Origin: Actinomycetes bacterium
GTDB taxonomy: Bacteria; Actinomycetota; Acidimicrobiia; Acidimicrobiales; Acidimicrobiaceae
NCBI GenBank assembly: GCA_021786375.1
Contig: JAJYNL010000077.1
Coordinates: 1 to 64,000 of the forward strand
Length of the DNA: 64,000 bases
Reading direction: 5' to 3'
In this document: piece after piece, positions 50,821 to 64,000 of the stretch
Layout of the letters: the number at the start of each line of letters is the position of its first letter
How positions within the stretch are numbered: position 1 is the first letter of the stretch
The notes under the pieces: model-generated
Told to the model about the DNA's origin: nothing
What the model saw: the letters and a program-made list of their open reading frames with translations, nothing else
Databases searched by the model: none
Program-made: the position numbers and the translations under genes

Positions 50821-51930
50821 ATGAAGACACAGGCAGCGGTGTTATGGGAGGTTGGCAAGGAGTGGAGCGTTGAGGAGGTCGAGCTGGCCGACCCTCTCCC
50901 CGGAGAGGTGCGCGTAAAGCTCGCCTCCTCCGGCCTATGCCACTCCGACGAGCACCTGCTTACCGGAGACCTCCCCGCCGCGCTACCCATGGTGGGGGGG
51001 CACGAGGGAGCCGGAATCGTCGAAGCAGTGGGGGCCGGAGTCACCTCGCTGGCCGAGGGTGACCATGTGGTCTTGAGCTTCATCCCCTCCTGCGGGCGCT
51101 GCGCTGCCTGCTCCACCGGCCATCAGAACCTCTGCGAGCTGGGCTCCTTTCTCCTCGCCGGAACCGAGATCGCCGGGGGCCAGCGCATCAATGCCCGTGG
51201 CCACGGGGTCGGGACCATGTGTTGCCTGGGCACCTTTTCACCGTACGTCGTGGCGCACGAGAACTCGGCGATAAAAATCCGTGACGACGTACCTCTCGAC
51301 AAGGCCTCCCTGGTCGGCTGCGGAGTAACCACGGGGTACGGCTCGGCCGTCTATGCCGCCGGAGTCCGCGCCGGGCACACCGCAGTAGTCGTCGGCTGCG
51401 GAGGTATCGGCATCAATGCCATCCAGGGAGCCAGGATCGCCGGCGCCCAGTACATCGTGGCCGTCGACCCGATTGCCTTCAAGCGAGAGAGCGCCATGCT
51501 CTACGGAGCCACCCATACCATGCCAAGCCTGGACGAGGCCCACGGCCTCGTCCAGGACCTCACCTGGGGGCGCATGGCGAATTCCGCGATCATCACCACC
51601 GGTGTTGCGGATGGGCAGATGATGGCCCAGGTCATGGCGGTCCTAGGCAAGAACGGGACAGCGGTTGTCACTTCGCTGGGCCGCTTCGATCGGATGGACG
51701 TCAACCTGAGCCTGCTGGATCTGACCCTTTATGAAAAGTCGGTGCGTGGCGCCCTCTTCGGCTCGGCCAATCCGCGCTTCGACATCCCCCGCATCCTCGA
51801 CCTCTACATGGACGGGATCCTCAAGCTGGACGAGCTGGTCACCAGGACCTATCCGCTCTCCCAGGTGAACGAAGGATACCAGGACATGCGCGATGGCAGG
51901 AACCTGCGCGGCATGATCGTCTTTGATTGA
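50821..51930 (+). CDS. NDMA-dependent (mycofactocin-linked) alcohol dehydrogenase
   Basis: 369 residues, medium-chain zinc dehydrogenase. Catalytic zinc ligands are in SGLCHSDEH near residue 39 and GGHEGAG near residue 60. The structural zinc loop is CGRCAACSTGHQNLC near residues 91-105, and the cofactor site is GCGGIGINAIQGARIAGA near 192. The wording (TEIAGGQRINARGHGVGTMCCLGTFSPYVVAHENSAIKI) matches the NDMA-dependent Rxyl_3153-type group. In this family NAD stays bound and is reoxidised by mycofactocin or an artificial nitrosoamine. GAGGAGGG lies just before the ATG. It overlaps the frame of the mycofactocin glycosyltransferase. Confidence 0.95.
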   Translation: MKTQAAVLWEVGKEWSVEEVELADPLPGEVRVKLASSGLCHSDEHLLTGDLPAALPMVGGHEGAGIVEAVGAGVTSLAEGDHVVLSFIPSCGRCAACSTGHQNLCELGSFLLAGTEIAGGQRINARGHGVGTMCCLGTFSPYVVAHENSAIKIRDDVPLDKASLVGCGVTTGYGSAVYAAGVRAGHTAVVVGCGGIGINAIQGARIAGAQYIVAVDPIAFKRESAMLYGATHTMPSLDEAHGLVQDLTWGRMANSAIITTGVADGQMMAQVMAVLGKNGTAVVTSLGRFDRMDVNLSLLDLTLYEKSVRGALFGSANPRFDIPRILDLYMDGILKLDELVTRTYPLSQVNEGYQDMRDGRNLRGMIVFD

Positions 51931-51949
51931 GGAGCTGACCGGCGATCTG

Positions 51950-53422
51950 ATGGCCGAGCTAACCGGGGCGCGCCTCATCGGCTGCACTCTGGTGAGCGAC
52001 AGCGGATCGACGCTGATGCTGCTCCGCCCCGGCGGTGTGGAGCTCTGCAGCAGCCTGGTCGAGGGTGCCCCGGGGCCGTTCACCGGGGCCGAGTTCAGGC
52101 TCGTGGCGAGGCTCGCTCGCAGGGGCCTCGTGCGGCTGGCCGCACCTCCCGGCCGGCCCACGCCTGCAGTAAGCGCGGTGGTGCCAGCGCTTGACAGTGC
52201 GGGCGTGAGCGAGTGCCTGGCCAGCCTGGCCAGGATACCCGAAGTAACCGAAGTGGTCCTGGTCAGCGACGGCAGTCCGCAGGCGGACCAGCTGGCCTGC
52301 CTGGCCGCCACTCACGGGGCGCGCTTCGTCGCTCTGCAAGCGAACCACGGTCCGGCCGCAGCCCGCAACGCCGGAGCCAGCCTGGCCGGAGGGGAGATCC
52401 TGCTCTTCCTGGACAGCGATGCGGCGGCGCTGCCCGGACTCTCGCAGCTGCTCCGCCTCTTCGCCTCGCCAAAGCTCTCGCTGGCGGCGCCCCGGATCCG
52501 CTCGCAAGGGCGTGAAGCCGGGCGCCCTCTTGCTGCAGCCCTGGCGGGATACGAGGCTCTCCACTCCCCGCTTGACATGGGCCCTTTGCCCGGCGAGGCC
52601 GGTATCTCCCCGCGCTATCTCCCCGCAGCCTGCCTCGCGGTCAGGGCGGCGGACTTCCACGACCTAGGCGGCTTCGACGAGCATCTCCGCTACGGCGAGG
52701 ATGTCGACCTGCTCTGGCGGCTACGCAAGAGGGGCGGTATCGCCTACTACTCGGGCAGCGACGGCGCAACGCACCTGGCACGAAGCACGCTGGGGGCATT
52801 CCTTCGCCAGCGCTTCTCCTACGGCACCTCCGCTGCAGCGTTGGTGGAGCGGCATCCGGGAATGCTCAAGCACCTCTTGCTCGACGAGGTAACAGCAGCA
52901 CTCGCAGCCTTCCCCTTGGCGGGCGCCTCGCTCCGCCTGGCCACCTTGGCTGATGCGCGCCGGCGCCTGCGCACTTCTGCCGGGCGGGCCGGTGTCGACA
53001 TCCAAGACCTGACTGTTCCATCCCGAGAGGTGGTTGCGGCACTGGCCGCGGAGGTTTCCATGCTGGTACGAGCGCTCGGCATGCCCGCACTCGCCCTTAC
53101 GGGATTTTCAGCGCGGCTGAGGAGTAGGCTCGCCACCTTGCTGGGGCTGCTGGCCGTGACCCGCGCTCTGCAGGCGGCCCAAGCAGGCGCCGCGCTGCCG
53201 CGAACCCTGGCAACCGGGGTCATCTCGGTGCTGGACGACCTCGCCTACTCCGCCGGACTGGCCCGCGGCTGCGCGGCAAAGCTGTCGCTGGCACCCTACG
53301 TACCCGAGCTGCGCACCGGGCCGCTGCTCTCCCGCCTGGCGCAGTTGGCTAGTAGGTCGACCGCTCGGAAAGGATCCGCCGAGGGTTCTCCACCGTCATC
53401 TGGTCGATCTGGGCCTCGGTGA
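51950..53422 (+). CDS. mftF: mycofactocin glycosyltransferase MftF
   Basis: About 490 residues from the ATG at 51950; a TTG at 51923, overlapping the dehydrogenase by eight bases, is possible. A short PqqD-like N-terminus (STLMLLRPGGVELCSSL) is followed by a family 2 glycosyltransferase: VSAVVPALDSAGVSECLASL, VVLVSDGSPQADQL, AAARNAGASLAGGEILLFLDSDAAA (metal-binding DSD) and GGFDEHLRYGEDVDLLWRL (catalytic base). A C-terminal helical region is present. This is the layout of MftF, which adds glucose units to premycofactocin. Its 3' end overlaps the convergent hydrolase gene by 74 bases. Confidence 0.9.
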   Translation: MAELTGARLIGCTLVSDSGSTLMLLRPGGVELCSSLVEGAPGPFTGAEFRLVARLARRGLVRLAAPPGRPTPAVSAVVPALDSAGVSECLASLARIPEVTEVVLVSDGSPQADQLACLAATHGARFVALQANHGPAAARNAGASLAGGEILLFLDSDAAALPGLSQLLRLFASPKLSLAAPRIRSQGREAGRPLAAALAGYEALHSPLDMGPLPGEAGISPRYLPAACLAVRAADFHDLGGFDEHLRYGEDVDLLWRLRKRGGIAYYSGSDGATHLARSTLGAFLRQRFSYGTSAAALVERHPGMLKHLLLDEVTAALAAFPLAGASLRLATLADARRRLRTSAGRAGVDIQDLTVPSREVVAALAAEVSMLVRALGMPALALTGFSARLRSRLATLLGLLAVTRALQAAQAGAALPRTLATGVISVLDDLAYSAGLARGCAAKLSLAPYVPELRTGPLLSRLAQLASRSTARKGSAEGSPPSSGRSGPR

Positions 53423-56195: not shown

Positions 56196-57851
56196 ATGGC
56201 CGATAACAGGGCTGGGATAGGGACGAGGCTCACCTTGAAGGAGGTCCTGGCCCAGCCCTCACTTGGACTTCGCCTGGTCACCTCGGACCAAAGTGCTTTA
56301 GCCACCTCGGTGACAGGTGCGCACTCGTTCGAGATCTCCCGCCCCACCAGGTGGTTCTCCGCCCACTGGATCGCCCTTACCACCGGATTGCGCCTCAAGG
56401 GCCGCCCGGCCGAGCAGCGAGAGTTGGTGAAGGAGTTGCACAGCGCCGGAATCGCGGCGCTGGGGTTCGCGCTGGACGTCAATTTCCGTGCGGTCCCGCC
56501 AGGACTGCTCGAGGCAGCCGAGGAGTTGGGGCTCCCGGTCTTCACGGTCCCTTTCGCCACCGGCTTCGCCGAGATAATCGCCTTCGTTAACCAGGCGCTT
56601 CTCTCTCCCAACGTGAACGCCCTGCGCCGTTTTGTCTCCGCACAGGATTACCTGCTCGACTCGCTGCTCAGCCCGGACCCCGTGACCGCCATGATCGAGC
56701 GCCTGGCTCCGCTGGTGCCGGCGGCGGTTGCCCTCATCGAAGGCGGCTCCGGTGAGGTGGTTGCCGCGAGCGACAACATGGACGCCGGCCTGCTGGCGGA
56801 GGTTCGTGAGTTCATCGAGTATCAGAGCCCCTCGTCGGCAAACATGCAAGGCCGGGGGGCGCGCCGCCCAGCCGAGCAGGCCGATCCCTCCCTGCCCGGA
56901 CTTACCCAGCTGATTGAGTTCGAGGCCGGGCAGGGGCCCGGGCTGGCGCTGGCAGTGCTGCCGCCAAGCCGCCCTTCGATGTGGCTTGCCCTGGTCGGCA
57001 CCACCGACTCCGGCGAATCCGACTTCCAGCTGGCGCTTCCTCTGGTCCGCTCCGCCGGTCACATGCTCGCCATCGCACTCGAGACGCGAAGCGACCGGCT
57101 TGCCGAGAGGCGCGCACAGGAACGGGCGCTTGTAGCCGAGGTGTGCGGCCTGCGCGCCGCCAGGACACCGGCGGGAAGGCCGGCCAAGCCTCAGCTGGAA
57201 CGGCTCTTCTCTCTGGGGATCGACTTCTCGTCCCCCGCCTGGGTGGTGTGTGGCTCGCCGATGGCATCGGCCGCGGAGGCGGAGCGGGATTTCTCCGCCC
57301 TGCTCGAGACGATCGAGGAACACCCCCCAGTCATCTGGGACATGACCGGGGAAGTAATGGTGGCCATCGTCCAGACCGGCACCGAGACGATGCCGGATCA
57401 GCTCAGGCAACTGACCGGGAATCTCTTCCGCCTGGGTGTCTCCTCACCATGCCTGGGTGCGGCCGCCCTTCCGGCCGCCTATCGGGAGGCTCGTGCCTCC
57501 CTGGGCGAGCTGCTCACCACCCCGCATGGGGACCAACCCTCGGACGTGCTGCTCTTCGAGGATGCCTCCATGACAACCTGGCTGATGGCCCAGGTGGACT
57601 TGCGCAAGCTGGCCGAGAAGCAGGAGCGCCGGCGCGCCAATCTAACCGTAGAGCGCCACGCCATCACCACGCTGCGCGCCTACCTCGAGTGCAACCTGGA
57701 CATCAACCTTGCCGCCGCCAAGCTGGGCATACACCCGAACTCGATGCGCTACCGCCTGCATAAGGTGCGAGAGAGCCATGGGGTGCGGCTGGAGGACTTT
57801 GCGGAGCTGGTGGACCTATACCTGGCGCTCAAGATTCTGCCTCGATCCTGA
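56196..57851 (+). CDS. PucR-family transcriptional activator
   Basis: 551 residues. The N-terminal PucR domain is at about 12-125 (TLKEVLAQPSLGLRLVTSDQSALATSVTGAHSFEIS and ALGFALDVNFRAVPPGLLEAAEELGLPVFTVPF). A GAF-like middle region follows, and the C-terminal PucR-type helix-turn-helix is at about 490-545 (TLRAYLECNLDINLAAAKLGIHPNSMRYRLHKV). Members control purine, amine, GABA and acid catabolism. It lies directly upstream of and in the same direction as the aminotransferase and MDR reductase, so those are the likely targets. Confidence 0.93.
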   Translation: MADNRAGIGTRLTLKEVLAQPSLGLRLVTSDQSALATSVTGAHSFEISRPTRWFSAHWIALTTGLRLKGRPAEQRELVKELHSAGIAALGFALDVNFRAVPPGLLEAAEELGLPVFTVPFATGFAEIIAFVNQALLSPNVNALRRFVSAQDYLLDSLLSPDPVTAMIERLAPLVPAAVALIEGGSGEVVAASDNMDAGLLAEVREFIEYQSPSSANMQGRGARRPAEQADPSLPGLTQLIEFEAGQGPGLALAVLPPSRPSMWLALVGTTDSGESDFQLALPLVRSAGHMLAIALETRSDRLAERRAQERALVAEVCGLRAARTPAGRPAKPQLERLFSLGIDFSSPAWVVCGSPMASAAEAERDFSALLETIEEHPPVIWDMTGEVMVAIVQTGTETMPDQLRQLTGNLFRLGVSSPCLGAAALPAAYREARASLGELLTTPHGDQPSDVLLFEDASMTTWLMAQVDLRKLAEKQERRRANLTVERHAITTLRAYLECNLDINLAAAKLGIHPNSMRYRLHKVRESHGVRLEDFAELVDLYLALKILPRS

Positions 57852-60227: not shown

Positions 60228-60242
60228 GCCGGCCAGGACCCG

Positions 60243-60269
60243 TTGGGCACCTGCCCTTGTGGATATGAT
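60243..60269 (+). promoter_or_regulatory. candidate promoter of mftA, leaderless arrangement
   Basis: TTGGGC (60243-60248) and TATGAT (60264-60269) are 15 bases apart, and TATGAT ends six bases before the mftA ATG. Transcription would then begin at or near the start codon, which fits the missing ribosome binding site. Leaderless mRNAs are common in Actinomycetota. Confidence 0.45.
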
Positions 60270-60275
60270 TGAGCC

Positions 60276-60395
60276 ATGACAAAAGAGGCGGCGATGCAGG
60301 TGGGCGAAGACGCGGCGGCGGAGGATATGGAGTTCGTCGAGGAGGATCTCGTCATCGAGGAGGTCTCGATCGACGGAATGTGCGGCGTCTACTAG
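60276..60395 (+). CDS. mftA: mycofactocin precursor peptide MftA
   Basis: 39 residues. The leader is very acidic (EDAAAEDMEFVEEDLVIEEV) and the C-terminus is SIDGMCGVY. The invariant IDGMCGVY ending, with the final Val-Tyr pair, is the mycofactocin core: MftC decarboxylates the Tyr and crosslinks it to the Val, and the rest is removed. The gene is followed immediately by mftB and mftC, as in other mycofactocin loci. It has no Shine-Dalgarno sequence but a -10-like element sits right upstream. It was not in the supplied gene calls because of its size. Confidence 0.95.
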   Translation: MTKEAAMQVGEDAAAEDMEFVEEDLVIEEVSIDGMCGVY

Positions 60396-60682
60396 ACGGC
60401 CCGGCCTTGCGTCGCGAGCGGCTGCTTCTCAACCCGCGTATTTCCCTCAGGGAGGAGTCCTTCGGGGCCCTCTGCTACAATTTCTCGACGCGTGAACTCT
60501 TCCTGGTCAAGTCACGGCTGGTCCTGAAGCTGGCCGAACTCGCCAGGTGCGGTGTCGACCGATCGGTGGCTGAGGCCACCCTTGGTGCTTCCCCCGAGGG
60601 CTTCGACCGGCTGGTCGAAGCGCTGCTGGCAAGGAAGGTCCTGCTGCTTGAAGAGGCGCCCGGAGGCCACCGCGATGAATGA
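60380..60682 (+). CDS. mftB: mycofactocin RiPP-recognition chaperone MftB
   Basis: About 100 residues from a GTG at 60380 that overlaps the mftA end by 16 bases in another frame; a TTG at 60404 is an alternative. The sequence NPRISLREESFGALCYNFSTRELFLVKSRLVLKLAELARCG is the PqqD-like winged-helix recognition domain of MftB. It binds the MftA leader and presents the core to MftC. The C-terminal helix (GFDRLVEALLARKVLLLEEA) is typical. It overlaps mftC by eight bases. Confidence 0.92.
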   Translation: MRRLLDGPALRRERLLLNPRISLREESFGALCYNFSTRELFLVKSRLVLKLAELARCGVDRSVAEATLGASPEGFDRLVEALLARKVLLLEEAPGGHRDE

Positions 60683-61754
60683 CTCCCTTGCCGCCGCCCT
60701 GCGCGCCGGACTGACGGCACCAATCTGTCTGACCTGGGAGCTCACCTACGGCTGCAATCTGTCCTGCCGCCACTGCCTCTCGGACTCCGGGTCCAGGGCG
60801 CCCGGGGAGCTAAACACCAACGAAGCGCTCGAGCTCATCGACACCTTTGCCGAAATGGGTATCTTCTACGTAAACATCGGCGGTGGCGAGCCGATGATGC
60901 GCAGGGACTTCTTCTCTCTGCTCGAGCACGCCGTATCACGCCGGGTCGGGGTCAAGTTCTCCACCAACGGCACCTTCCTGGACGCCACTGCTGCGCGGCG
61001 CCTGGCCGGAATGGACTACGTGGACGTCCAGGTGTCGATCGACGGTCCAGACCGGGCCACCAGCGATGCCCTGCGGGGCCGGGGGTCGTTCGCAAAGGCG
61101 GTGGCGGCACTGGAGAATCTGGCCACGGCCGGCTTCGCCGATCCCAAGATCTCGGTCGTGGCCACCCGCCACAACGTCTCCCGCCTTGACGAGCTCGAAG
61201 AGATGGCCCGCGGTTTCGGGGCCAGCCTGCGCGTGACCAGGCTCCGCCCCTCGGGCCGCGGCGCGCAAAGCTATGCCAACCTGCGACCGACCCCCGAGGA
61301 CAACCGGCACCTCTTCCGCTGGCTCTCCGAGCGTCCCCACGTCCTGACCGGCGACTCCTTCTTCCACCTCTCGCCGCTGGGTGATCCGCTGCCCGGCTTG
61401 AACATGTGCGGCGCCGGGAGGGTGGTGTGCCTGGTCGACCCGGTTGGCGACGTCTACGCATGCCCCTTTACCATCCACCCGGACTTCAAGGCCGGGAATA
61501 TCCGCGAAACGGGCCTTGCGGAGATTTGGCGCAGCTCGGGCCTTTTCACCAGCTTGCGGTCCGAGCCCGGCCCCACCGGCTGCTCGAGCTGCTCCGCTTA
61601 TGCCTCCTGCCAGGGGGGCTGCATGGCGGCCAAGTTCCACACCGGATCCGGGCCGGCCGACCCTGACCCGGAATGCGTGATGGGCCGGGCCGGTGCTACG
61701 GCGTCCACGGTGGTATCGATTCGTCCTCGGCGCGCAGCCGCGGCGACGCGTTAG
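60675..61754 (+). CDS. mftC: mycofactocin radical SAM maturase MftC
   Basis: 359 residues. The radical SAM cluster motif is Cys27-x3-Cys31-x2-Cys34 (GCNLSCRHCLSDSG), preceded by LTWELTY. GGEPMMRRDF near residue 75 and VSIDGPDRATSD near residue 115 follow the family. A SPASM domain with several more Cys residues occupies about 245-350 (MCGAGRVVCLVDPVGDVYACPF, CSSCSAYASCQGGC), holding two extra Fe-S clusters. MftC converts MftA to the decarboxylated, crosslinked intermediate. It starts inside mftB. Confidence 0.97.
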   Translation: MNDSLAAALRAGLTAPICLTWELTYGCNLSCRHCLSDSGSRAPGELNTNEALELIDTFAEMGIFYVNIGGGEPMMRRDFFSLLEHAVSRRVGVKFSTNGTFLDATAARRLAGMDYVDVQVSIDGPDRATSDALRGRGSFAKAVAALENLATAGFADPKISVVATRHNVSRLDELEEMARGFGASLRVTRLRPSGRGAQSYANLRPTPEDNRHLFRWLSERPHVLTGDSFFHLSPLGDPLPGLNMCGAGRVVCLVDPVGDVYACPFTIHPDFKAGNIRETGLAEIWRSSGLFTSLRSEPGPTGCSSCSAYASCQGGCMAAKFHTGSGPADPDPECVMGRAGATASTVVSIRPRRAAAATR

Positions 61755-61762
61755 GCACGGAC

Positions 61763-63757
61763 TTGCCCGTCGGGTCCGCCGCAAGGCTCTTTGCCGCTGA
61801 TCTGCAACTCGCAGGCCGGGTACTGAAGAGCCGTGCCTACTTCGGCCCCCACCCGACCAACTTGAACCGGCGTGAGGAGTTCCGTCCCGCTTACGGTGAA
61901 TACCTTGCGGCGCGGGCGGCGGGTGGTGCCGCACTGGTGGTGACGGAGGTGGCTTCGGTGAGCAGGGAGGACTGGCCGTATGAGTACGCGCCGCTCCTGC
62001 CCGCGGCCGCTTCCTCTCTCGCGGCCACCGCCTCGGCGGTGAGGGGCGAGGGCTCGCTGCTGGTGGCGGGGATAGGCCACGCCGGCGGCCAGGGCTCCTC
62101 CGCCCACTCCCAGCAGGTGCTCTGGGCCCCCTCCCCCTTTGCGGAGACCACCACCAACGAGCTCTCCGCCGAGCTGGAGGAGGAAGCCATCGAGGCGATC
62201 ATCGCCGACTTCGCCACCGCCGCGGCATCGGCCGTCGCGGCCGGCTGCGACGGAGTCGAGTTGAACGCCGGCCAATTCTCCCTAATACGCCAGTTCCTCT
62301 CGCCATTGACCAACCAGCGGGGCGATCGCTGGGGTGAGGATCGTGCCCTGTTTGCCTCCGCCGTACTGGAGGCGGTCCGGCGCAGCGTTGCGGGCGGGGT
62401 GGTCGGCATGAGACTGTGCATCGACGAACTCGCCCCCTGGGCCGGCATCCTCCCACCCAGGGCGGCAGAGATCTTCGCCGACCTGGCGGACCGGGTGGAC
62501 TACCTGGTCCTCGAGCGCGGATCGATCTACACCCACCACGCCACCTGCCCCGACTTCCACGCAGGCACCGCCTTCCTGGACGAGGCACTGGCAGAGTTCA
62601 AGGCCACTTGCCCCTTGGCGACTCCGCTCGCCCTGGTGGACGGACGCGTGACGGTGCGTGAAGCAGAGGAGATGCTCGCCACAGGAGAGGTCCAGCTCGC
62701 CGAACTCACCCGCGCACTGATCGCCGATCCCGAGGCTTTGGCCAGGCTGGCCGCCGGCGGGAGCGAGAGGCCGTGCGTCGCCTGCAACCAGGGGTGCCAG
62801 GTGCGGGATCCGCGCAACCCCGTGGTCACCTGCGCCTTCAACCCCGATGCCGGGCACGAGGCCGAGGCCAAGATGCGTGACGGGGTGGCAAGGGGTCGGG
62901 CTCGAGACAGCAGGCCGGCAGAGCTCCTGGTTGCCGGTGGCGGCTTGGCCGGCATGGAGGCCGCCCTGCACGCGACCCGCCTGGGCATAAGAGTCCGCCT
63001 TTACGAGGCTTCGGGGCAAGCGGGCGGGGAGCTGGCCCTACTCGCCGGGCACGGCCCCAATCCTCGGCTGGCGCGGCTGCTCGAGTACTATCTGTCGGCC
63101 CTTGCCACGGCAAAGGTGGAGGTGAGGCTTTCACACCCGCTGACCTCCTCAGACCTCCTCGCGGCAGCCGAGGCCGGGAACCCGGTGGTGGTCGCGACCG
63201 GCGGCCTCTACCTGCCTCGTCCCTCGAACCTGGCGCGCCTGACCGAGAACGCCCCGGTGGGCTCCCCCCGGGTGGTGGGGGCGGCACAGGCCCTGCGCGA
63301 GCCGCCGCAAACCGGATGCAAGGTGGTTCTCTTCGACCCGACCGGCGGCCCGTGGGCCATGAATACGGTGGATGCCCTACTTACTGCGGGAGTTTCGCTG
63401 GCCCTGGTGACCCCCGACCGCCTCCCCGGCTCTCAACTTGCCCTCACCGGAGACCTGGTGCCTGCCGCGCAGCGCCTTGCCCGGGCCGGTGTTCCGTGCT
63501 TCACCGACACCACCGTGGCCGGGCTCACCTCCGGCGGAGTGTCGATCGAGGAGCGCTTCGGTCCCGGACGCCGGACGCTGGAGGCGGAGGTGGTCGTCGA
63601 CTGCTCCCCGGCGGTAGCAGCAGGTGGCTGGCCGGAGCACAGGCTGATACGTCCGGCCGGGGACGCGCTCGCTCCGAGGGGATGGCAGGCCGCCGTGCTG
63701 GATGCGCGGCGAGCGGTGGCCACCTTGACCGCGGAGGTCGCCGATGGCGGCCTTTAA
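61763..63757 (+). CDS. mycofactocin-system FadH/OYE-family oxidoreductase, first copy
   Basis: About 664 residues; the TTG at 61763, just after the mftC stop, is the best start but has no clear ribosome binding site. An upstream frame to 61673 overlaps mftC. The N-terminal flavin TIM barrel (TNLNRREEFRPAYGEYLAARAAGGAALVVTEVASVS) and an Fe-S motif, CVACNQGCQ...VVTC, near residue 337 are of the 2,4-dienoyl-CoA reductase type. The C-terminal FAD/NAD domain starts AELLVAGGGLAGMEAALHATRLG. This paired group is a known mycofactocin companion of unproven role. It overlaps the next gene by 14 bases. Confidence 0.92.
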   Translation: MPVGSAARLFAADLQLAGRVLKSRAYFGPHPTNLNRREEFRPAYGEYLAARAAGGAALVVTEVASVSREDWPYEYAPLLPAAASSLAATASAVRGEGSLLVAGIGHAGGQGSSAHSQQVLWAPSPFAETTTNELSAELEEEAIEAIIADFATAAASAVAAGCDGVELNAGQFSLIRQFLSPLTNQRGDRWGEDRALFASAVLEAVRRSVAGGVVGMRLCIDELAPWAGILPPRAAEIFADLADRVDYLVLERGSIYTHHATCPDFHAGTAFLDEALAEFKATCPLATPLALVDGRVTVREAEEMLATGEVQLAELTRALIADPEALARLAAGGSERPCVACNQGCQVRDPRNPVVTCAFNPDAGHEAEAKMRDGVARGRARDSRPAELLVAGGGLAGMEAALHATRLGIRVRLYEASGQAGGELALLAGHGPNPRLARLLEYYLSALATAKVEVRLSHPLTSSDLLAAAEAGNPVVVATGGLYLPRPSNLARLTENAPVGSPRVVGAAQALREPPQTGCKVVLFDPTGGPWAMNTVDALLTAGVSLALVTPDRLPGSQLALTGDLVPAAQRLARAGVPCFTDTTVAGLTSGGVSIEERFGPGRRTLEAEVVVDCSPAVAAGGWPEHRLIRPAGDALAPRGWQAAVLDARRAVATLTAEVADGGL

Positions 63758-64000
63758 GCGCCTCTTCTCCCCCATCGAAATCGGCCGAATGCACCTGGAG
63801 AACCGGATCGTCTTTTCCGCGCACCTGACCAACTTCGCGGTCGACGGGCTGCCCACCACGGCGCACGCCGCCTACTACGAGGCACGCGCCAGGGGCGGGG
63901 CGGGTCTAATCATCACCGAGGAGCACTCGGTCCACCCCAGTGACTGGCCGTACGAGAAGATGATCCACGGCTTCCGCCCCGAGGTGCTGGTGGGATACCG
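63744..64000 (+). CDS. mycofactocin-system FadH/OYE-family oxidoreductase, second copy, cut by window end
   Basis: The first 85 codons of a second copy: FKRLFSPIEIGRMHLENRIVFSAHLTNFAVDG, YYEARARGGAGLIITEEHSVHPSDWPYEKMI. This is the start of an Old Yellow Enzyme flavin barrel. The sequence resembles the N-terminal region of the preceding gene (both end this part DWPYE...), so the two likely arose by duplication. The rest lies beyond base 64000. The start is the ATG at 63744, overlapping the previous gene by 14 bases. Confidence 0.9.
   Translation, partial: MAAFKRLFSPIEIGRMHLENRIVFSAHLTNFAVDGLPTTAHAAYYEARARGGAGLIITEEHSVHPSDWPYEKMIHGFRPEVLVGY

Follow-up and report, generated by a model that had tools for sequence, protein, structure and literature searches.

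How does an organism that carries the genes for mycofactocin, a redox cofactor derived from a peptide, complete this cofactor when the enzyme that makes its redox-active core is missing? The question is raised by a 64,000-base stretch of actinomycete DNA (the window), which is bases 1-64000 of the 97,761-base contig JAJYNL010000077.1 (assembly GCA_021786375.1; contig and window numbering are identical) from a 2.83 Mb genome that is 95% complete. At 60276-61754 on the forward strand lies the mycofactocin core mftA-mftB-mftC, as an earlier note on this DNA had proposed, and all three products score above the curated cut-offs of the profile families whose bit scores were used here to assign identities. 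The mftA gene (60276..60395) encodes a 39-codon precursor ending in IDGMCGVY, with Val-Tyr as the core, and its place in the MftA family is secure (TIGR03969, 48.8 bits, cut-off 25); mftB (60380..60682, GTG start) encodes the recognition chaperone for this ribosomally synthesized and post-translationally modified peptide (TIGR03967, 46 bits, cut-off 33), and mftC (60675..61754) the radical S-adenosylmethionine/SPASM maturase (TIGR03962, 517 bits, cut-off 265). Taken by itself the locus is an ordinary mycofactocin core; its interest comes from belonging to a widespread cluster type that is without MftD.

Descriptions of the pathway give it as mftABCDEF, in which MftD makes the redox-active core: in most described clusters this flavin mononucleotide (FMN) enzyme converts AHDP, the cyclised Val-Tyr core, into the redox-active keto-amide pre-mycofactocin by oxidative deamination. 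The earlier note saw no mftD beside mftC and took this for a different gene order. A search of the whole genome, however, gave no MftD match over the cut-off, the best reaching 233 bits against 471 and scoring higher as an L-lactate dehydrogenase (295 bits), so that mftD is absent rather than merely displaced. The gene for the peptidase MftE, which the note had proposed to seek by extending the contig to the right, is present at 69235-69945 (TIGR03964, 207 bits, cut-off 172); of the two genes whose joint absence from the genome the note had set against its identification, one is therefore missing and the other is there. MftG (the GMC oxidoreductase TIGR03970) likewise has no match in the genome at E 1e-40. 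The cluster is thus a variant of the canonical mftABCDEF without MftD. That some mycofactocin genomes do without the MftD family (TIGR03966) was already pointed out by Haft (2011), who found it difficult to deduce what the family does (PMC3023750). Deletion of mftD in M. smegmatis leads to accumulation of AHDP and loss of the mature cofactor (PMC7491314), and because this deletion blocks AHDP maturation, an MftD-less genome with mftA, mftB, mftC and mftE, a Val-Tyr core and mycofactocin-dependent dehydrogenases should need a substitute.

The place to look for one is directly after mftC, where two FadH/OYE-type flavoenzyme genes follow on the forward strand. Both are real, as the earlier note had held. 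The first, OYE1 (61763..63757, start approximate), is an FMN and 4Fe-4S enzyme whose best family is mycofact_OYE_1 (TIGR03996, 527 bits, below the cut-off of 628); the second, OYE2, of which only the first 85 codons had been visible, starts at 63744, passes the window end at 64000 and ends at 65735, and it exceeds the cut-off of mycofact_OYE_2 (TIGR03997, 829 bits against 793). The note had called these genes a known but poorly explained companion family, and this remark turned out to touch the key point, since the family occurs where MftD is missing.

Of 50 genomes that carry relatives of this MftC, 20 have MftD (19 over the cut-off and one truncated at a contig end, 470 bits), 26 have OYE2 (a fragment in one case), four have neither and none has both. 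As a set picked by relatedness could bias such counts, an even draw of 396 Actinomycetota genomes, each at least 90% complete, was also made. Among the 73 of these with mftC, 57 have MftD and no OYE2, 16 have OYE2 and no MftD, and not one has both or neither (Fisher p about 2e-16, with relatedness among the 73 genomes ignored); in all 16 genomes without MftD, OYE2 scores at least 764 bits. Among these 16, G427 is probably the same genome as G032 of the related set. The exclusion extends to Chloroflexota, where 19 of 400 genomes have mftC: four have MftD, 14 have OYE2 (one as a fragment), one has neither and none has both. Both assignments are well separated by score. MftD scores are bimodal, with true MftD at 570-731 bits and the rest at 335 or below except for the 470-bit contig-end piece, and full-length OYE2 in complete genomes scores at least 764 bits, against at most 607 for other OYE paralogues and, in the comparison with MftD-containing genomes, at most 562 for the paralogues there. 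FadH/OYE paralogues at 490-607 bits do not track MftD, because they are also found in genomes that have it. One further such paralogue (G000:C39:80334-82280) scores 574 bits to mycofact_OYE_2. An LldD-like protein on contig C75 was considered as a substitute for MftD and rejected as a general answer, since its homologues also occur in MftD-containing genomes and are absent from many OYE2-containing ones.

The exclusion is not a mere matter of ancestry. In a phylogeny of 98 MftC proteins, the MftD and OYE2 types swap at least 12 times, a number that is approximate because the tree was built by a quick method and is weakly supported in parts; its strongly supported branches require seven changes of the MftD label. 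With seven independent supported pairs, drawn in 200 random pairings, the two enzymes changed in opposite directions in 6.8 pairs on average and in the same direction never (median p 0.016). Close relatives can be of opposite type, as with G296, which has OYE2, and G387 and G148, which have MftD.

A comparison of 72 loci with either enzyme (34 MftD and 38 OYE2) showed that OYE2 usually comes with electron transfer flavoprotein (ETF) genes. Genes for etfA, fixC and fixX lie nearby in none of the 34 MftD loci and in 27 of the 38 OYE2 loci, and eight of the 11 OYE2 loci without them stop at a contig or locus edge. OYE1 is dispensable, as only one OYE gene lies in the loci of the actinomycete family f48 and of the haloarchaea. 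The f48 clusters (L088, L089 and L090 in G225, G358 and G374) are divergent, with an MftA ending in VDGICGVY and a distant MftC (325-340 bits), and their single OYE2 stands directly 3' of mftC. MftA, wherever found, ends in CGVY in both cluster types. Two haloarchaeal plasmids, of Haloterrigena turkmenica and Halolamina, encode mftA, mftB2 and mftC along with a glycosyltransferase and a member of the creatininase family (bearing the annotation mftE in H. turkmenica), together with an operon of OYE, ETF-alpha, FAD oxidoreductase, 4Fe-4S protein and ETF-beta; no mftD is annotated on either plasmid, the replicons to which this search was confined. The plasmid loci of Thermomicrobium roseum and Tsukamurella show the converse, with mftD present and the OYE/ETF module absent. 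The mycofactocin-named OYE/ETF module thus takes the place of MftD in distribution and, for most loci, in position.

The sequence and fold of OYE2 point towards the amine dehydrogenases. Its 4Fe-4S cysteines are kept in 31-32 of 32 sequences, and a histidine aligned to His179 of histamine dehydrogenase is present in all 32; at this position FadH has Glu and most OYE1 proteins, including that of this locus, have Gln. In every OYE2 and OYE1 compared, Asp replaces the first Gly of the FadH NADPH motif (GxGxxG, in the second Rossmann domain), and with this motif missing an NADPH-linked, FadH-like role for OYE2 is disfavoured. The predicted structure of OYE2 (pLDDT 78, pTM 0.66) superposes better on histamine and trimethylamine dehydrogenases (TM-score 0.78) than on FadH (0.72), and the OYE1 model is nearest to histamine dehydrogenase 3k30. 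Likeness to these dehydrogenases covers the full-length fold, the 4Fe-4S motif, the active-site His and the lack of GxGxxG in the second Rossmann domain. The identity over the fold is about 26%, and the amine substrate of OYE2 is putative. E. coli 2,4-dienoyl-CoA reductase FadH is the best single PDB match of OYE2 by sequence (237 bits), yet it has the NADPH motif and the Glu at the His position, neither of which occurs in OYE2. Trimethylamine dehydrogenase donates its electrons to ETF. A relative of these enzymes, the methylamine-releasing Pno of Agrobacterium S33, clusters with etfAB and an ETF-quinone oxidoreductase (PMC5500553), and OYE2 resembles it in gene neighbourhood, having ETF genes nearby.

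From this combination we infer the substrate of OYE2, its catalytic step and the direction of electron flow. MftA, MftB, MftC and MftE would produce and release AHDP as usual. OYE2 would then deaminate it oxidatively to pre-mycofactocin in the stead of MftD, with the amine oxidised at the FMN, and electrons would leave OYE2 singly through the 4Fe-4S cluster to the dedicated EtfA/EtfB, from which the FixC- and FixX-like proteins may hand them to quinone. OYE1, whose active-site His is gone and which some clusters do not have, would be a divergent partner copy. That OYE2 with ETF and FixCX oxidises AHDP in the place of MftD in this cluster type is, in our judgement, probable. It is also fairly likely that the cluster type represents a second, non-homologous route to pre-mycofactocin, in which an iron-sulfur flavin amine dehydrogenase, equipped with a dedicated ETF and ETF-quinone oxidoreductase, stands in for MftD and couples the last oxidation to the quinone pool. 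Such a route would serve some of the Actinomycetota, a large share of the Chloroflexota, certain Pseudomonadota and, probably, haloarchaea. Independence from O2 is not supported as a simple rule behind the swap, as lineages with OYE2 include aerobes, for example haloarchaea.

Several observations weigh against replacement of MftD by OYE2. Related OYE/FadH enzymes are reductases, and OYE2 has Leu at the position of the cysteine that holds the covalent FMN (6-S-cysteinyl FMN) in histamine dehydrogenase. The haloarchaeal OYE copies are divergent and, at 614-625 bits, come close to the paralogue range. Five surveyed genomes have neither enzyme (G002, G006, G008, G019 and G666): in G002 and G006 the module is truncated by a contig end or deleted, and the other three have no such explanation. 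The mftC-mftE gap of G006 (L014:1503-3501) holds module remnants only (an OYE1-like start, a FixC-like piece and a shortened EtfB), which may reflect either decay of the pathway or chimerism in the assembly. Finally, in G137, G227 and G415 OYE2 stands alone at a distant site with no adjoining ETF genes. Since it is present there without ETF neighbours, OYE2 is the constant element. In these three genomes (L072/L073, L074/L075 and L083/L084) OYE1 still adjoins mftC, and the neighbour of the solitary OYE2 of G137 is an ATP-grasp/PurK-like gene.

Other explanations of the exclusion have to be considered. MftG re-oxidises mycofactocinol, is absent from about 25% of mftC genomes, and what replaces it there has been left open (PMC11778925). 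The OYE/ETF/FixCX module could do this job and feed the quinone, with an unrelated enzyme oxidising AHDP. MftG is missing here and in all but one of the 50 genomes with related MftC, and an ETF with a FixC that carries the ETF-quinone oxidoreductase quinone-binding domain (PF21162) is a natural path to the respiratory chain. MftG is, however, missing from nearly all MftD-containing genomes of this set too, and because those genomes never have the module, the latter tracks MftD rather than MftG. A separate AHDP oxidase would also have to co-vary perfectly with OYE2, and the LldD-like homologues of MftD are missing in many OYE2 genomes (no match in G027, for example), all of which makes this explanation unlikely. 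Slightly less credit can be given to a double role, in which OYE2 and its electron-transfer partners would first act on AHDP in the biosynthetic pathway and afterwards turn mycofactocinol back to its oxidised form. Such a role would fit a locus in which MftD and MftG are both missing and a single respiratory outlet is encoded, and a dedicated ETF/FixCX looks heavy for a low-flux biosynthetic step; the second activity is nevertheless purely hypothetical, and the sequence does not separate this from the simpler proposal.

OYE2 organisms might instead make a different mature cofactor (reduced, desaturated or with the amine retained, for instance) and not the product of MftD. C=C bonds are the usual target of OYE/FadH relatives, and the active site of OYE2 is distinctive, with conserved ELQCSH and DE motifs. 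Against this, the core peptide is unchanged, MftC and MftE are retained, as are a divergent MftF-type glycosyltransferase and the same nicotinoprotein partners, and the repeated switching of the two types within one family argues that the products are interchangeable, so that we regard a different cofactor as improbable. The least credible account is that lineage or the thresholds of the models produce the exclusion by chance, with the OYE genes only loosely associated: shared ancestry does inflate the raw counts and many of the genomes are metagenome-assembled, but the scores are bimodal, the tree holds 12 switches and the pattern appears in both Actinomycetota and Chloroflexota. The preferred reading remains that OYE2 replaces MftD, and it is the exclusion of one by the other that is observed, the shared reaction being the putative part.

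Compared with the canonical mftABCDEF(G) of M. tuberculosis and M. smegmatis, the present cluster shares the CGVY end of MftA, MftB, MftC, MftE, a candidate MftF-like glycosyltransferase, an NDMA-dependent alcohol dehydrogenase and a mycofactocin-type short-chain dehydrogenase/reductase (SDR); it differs in having no MftD and no MftG and in the OYE1-OYE2-etfA-fixC-fixX-etfB block between mftC and mftE. This block has the same four component types as FixABCX and ETF with ETF-quinone oxidoreductase, here placed in a cofactor operon. Four NCBIfam families (mycofact_OYE_1, mycofact_OYE_2, mft_etfA and mft_etfB; TIGR03996, TIGR03997, NF038209 and TIGR04503) already bear mycofactocin-linked names; OYE2 passes its cut-off, whereas OYE1 and EtfA fall below theirs and EtfB matches the general ETF family only. 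The open-access literature searched contains no paper that links mycofactocin to an electron transfer flavoprotein or to FixABCX, and none that gives the OYE/ETF families a step or states the exclusion of MftD; priority for the exclusion and for the replacement of MftD is unproven. If a second enzyme system does make pre-mycofactocin, organisms without MftD would still be producers, the maturation of the cofactor would be linked to the quinone pool, and four mycofactocin-named families, none with a printed function in that literature, would gain a testable role.

The remainder of the operon follows OYE2 in the order etfA, fixC-like, fixX-like, etfB, mftE and SDR. The etfA gene (65732-66775) matches mft_etfA best, at 145 bits, below the cut-off of 240, with an ETF_alpha Pfam domain at 85 bits. 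A FixC-like FAD protein with the PF21162 domain (about 66756-68081), a FixX-like 4Fe-4S protein (about 68090-68440) and an EtfB-type protein (about 68468-69238; Pfam ETF, 43.9 bits) precede mftE, and the mycofactocin-type SDR (69923-70714) reaches 226 bits against a cut-off of 265. The earlier note had described its five genes as nearly all overlapping. The overlaps of 16 bases (mftA/mftB), 8 (mftB/mftC) and 14 (OYE1/OYE2) hold good, but there is none between mftC and OYE1, as the homology of OYE1 starts past the mftC stop. The closest MftC sequences come from metagenome-assembled actinomycetes (97, 82, 82 and 80% identity), followed by Acidithrix ferrooxidans (65%).

Upstream of the core on the forward strand lie an NDMA-dependent alcohol dehydrogenase, a mycofactocin-linked nicotinoprotein (50821..51930; TIGR03989, 544 bits, cut-off 440), and a divergent MftF-like glycosyltransferase (51923..53422) for which TIGR03965 is the best family, at 232 bits, below its cut-off of 280. 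Only 48 bases (60228-60275) separate mftA from an upstream quinone-reductase-like gene, and for this reason mftA may be without a promoter of its own. That gene and one for a class III aminotransferase are preceded by a PucR-type regulator gene (56196-57851; PmfR-like, 78 bits), which is a possible regulator of the cluster, and the genes between it and mftA are possibly co-transcribed with mftA. Immediately 3' of the SDR, with which the mycofactocin operon ends, lies a gene for a Queuosine-salvage family protein (PF10343; contig 70718-71761, L006:10718-11761).

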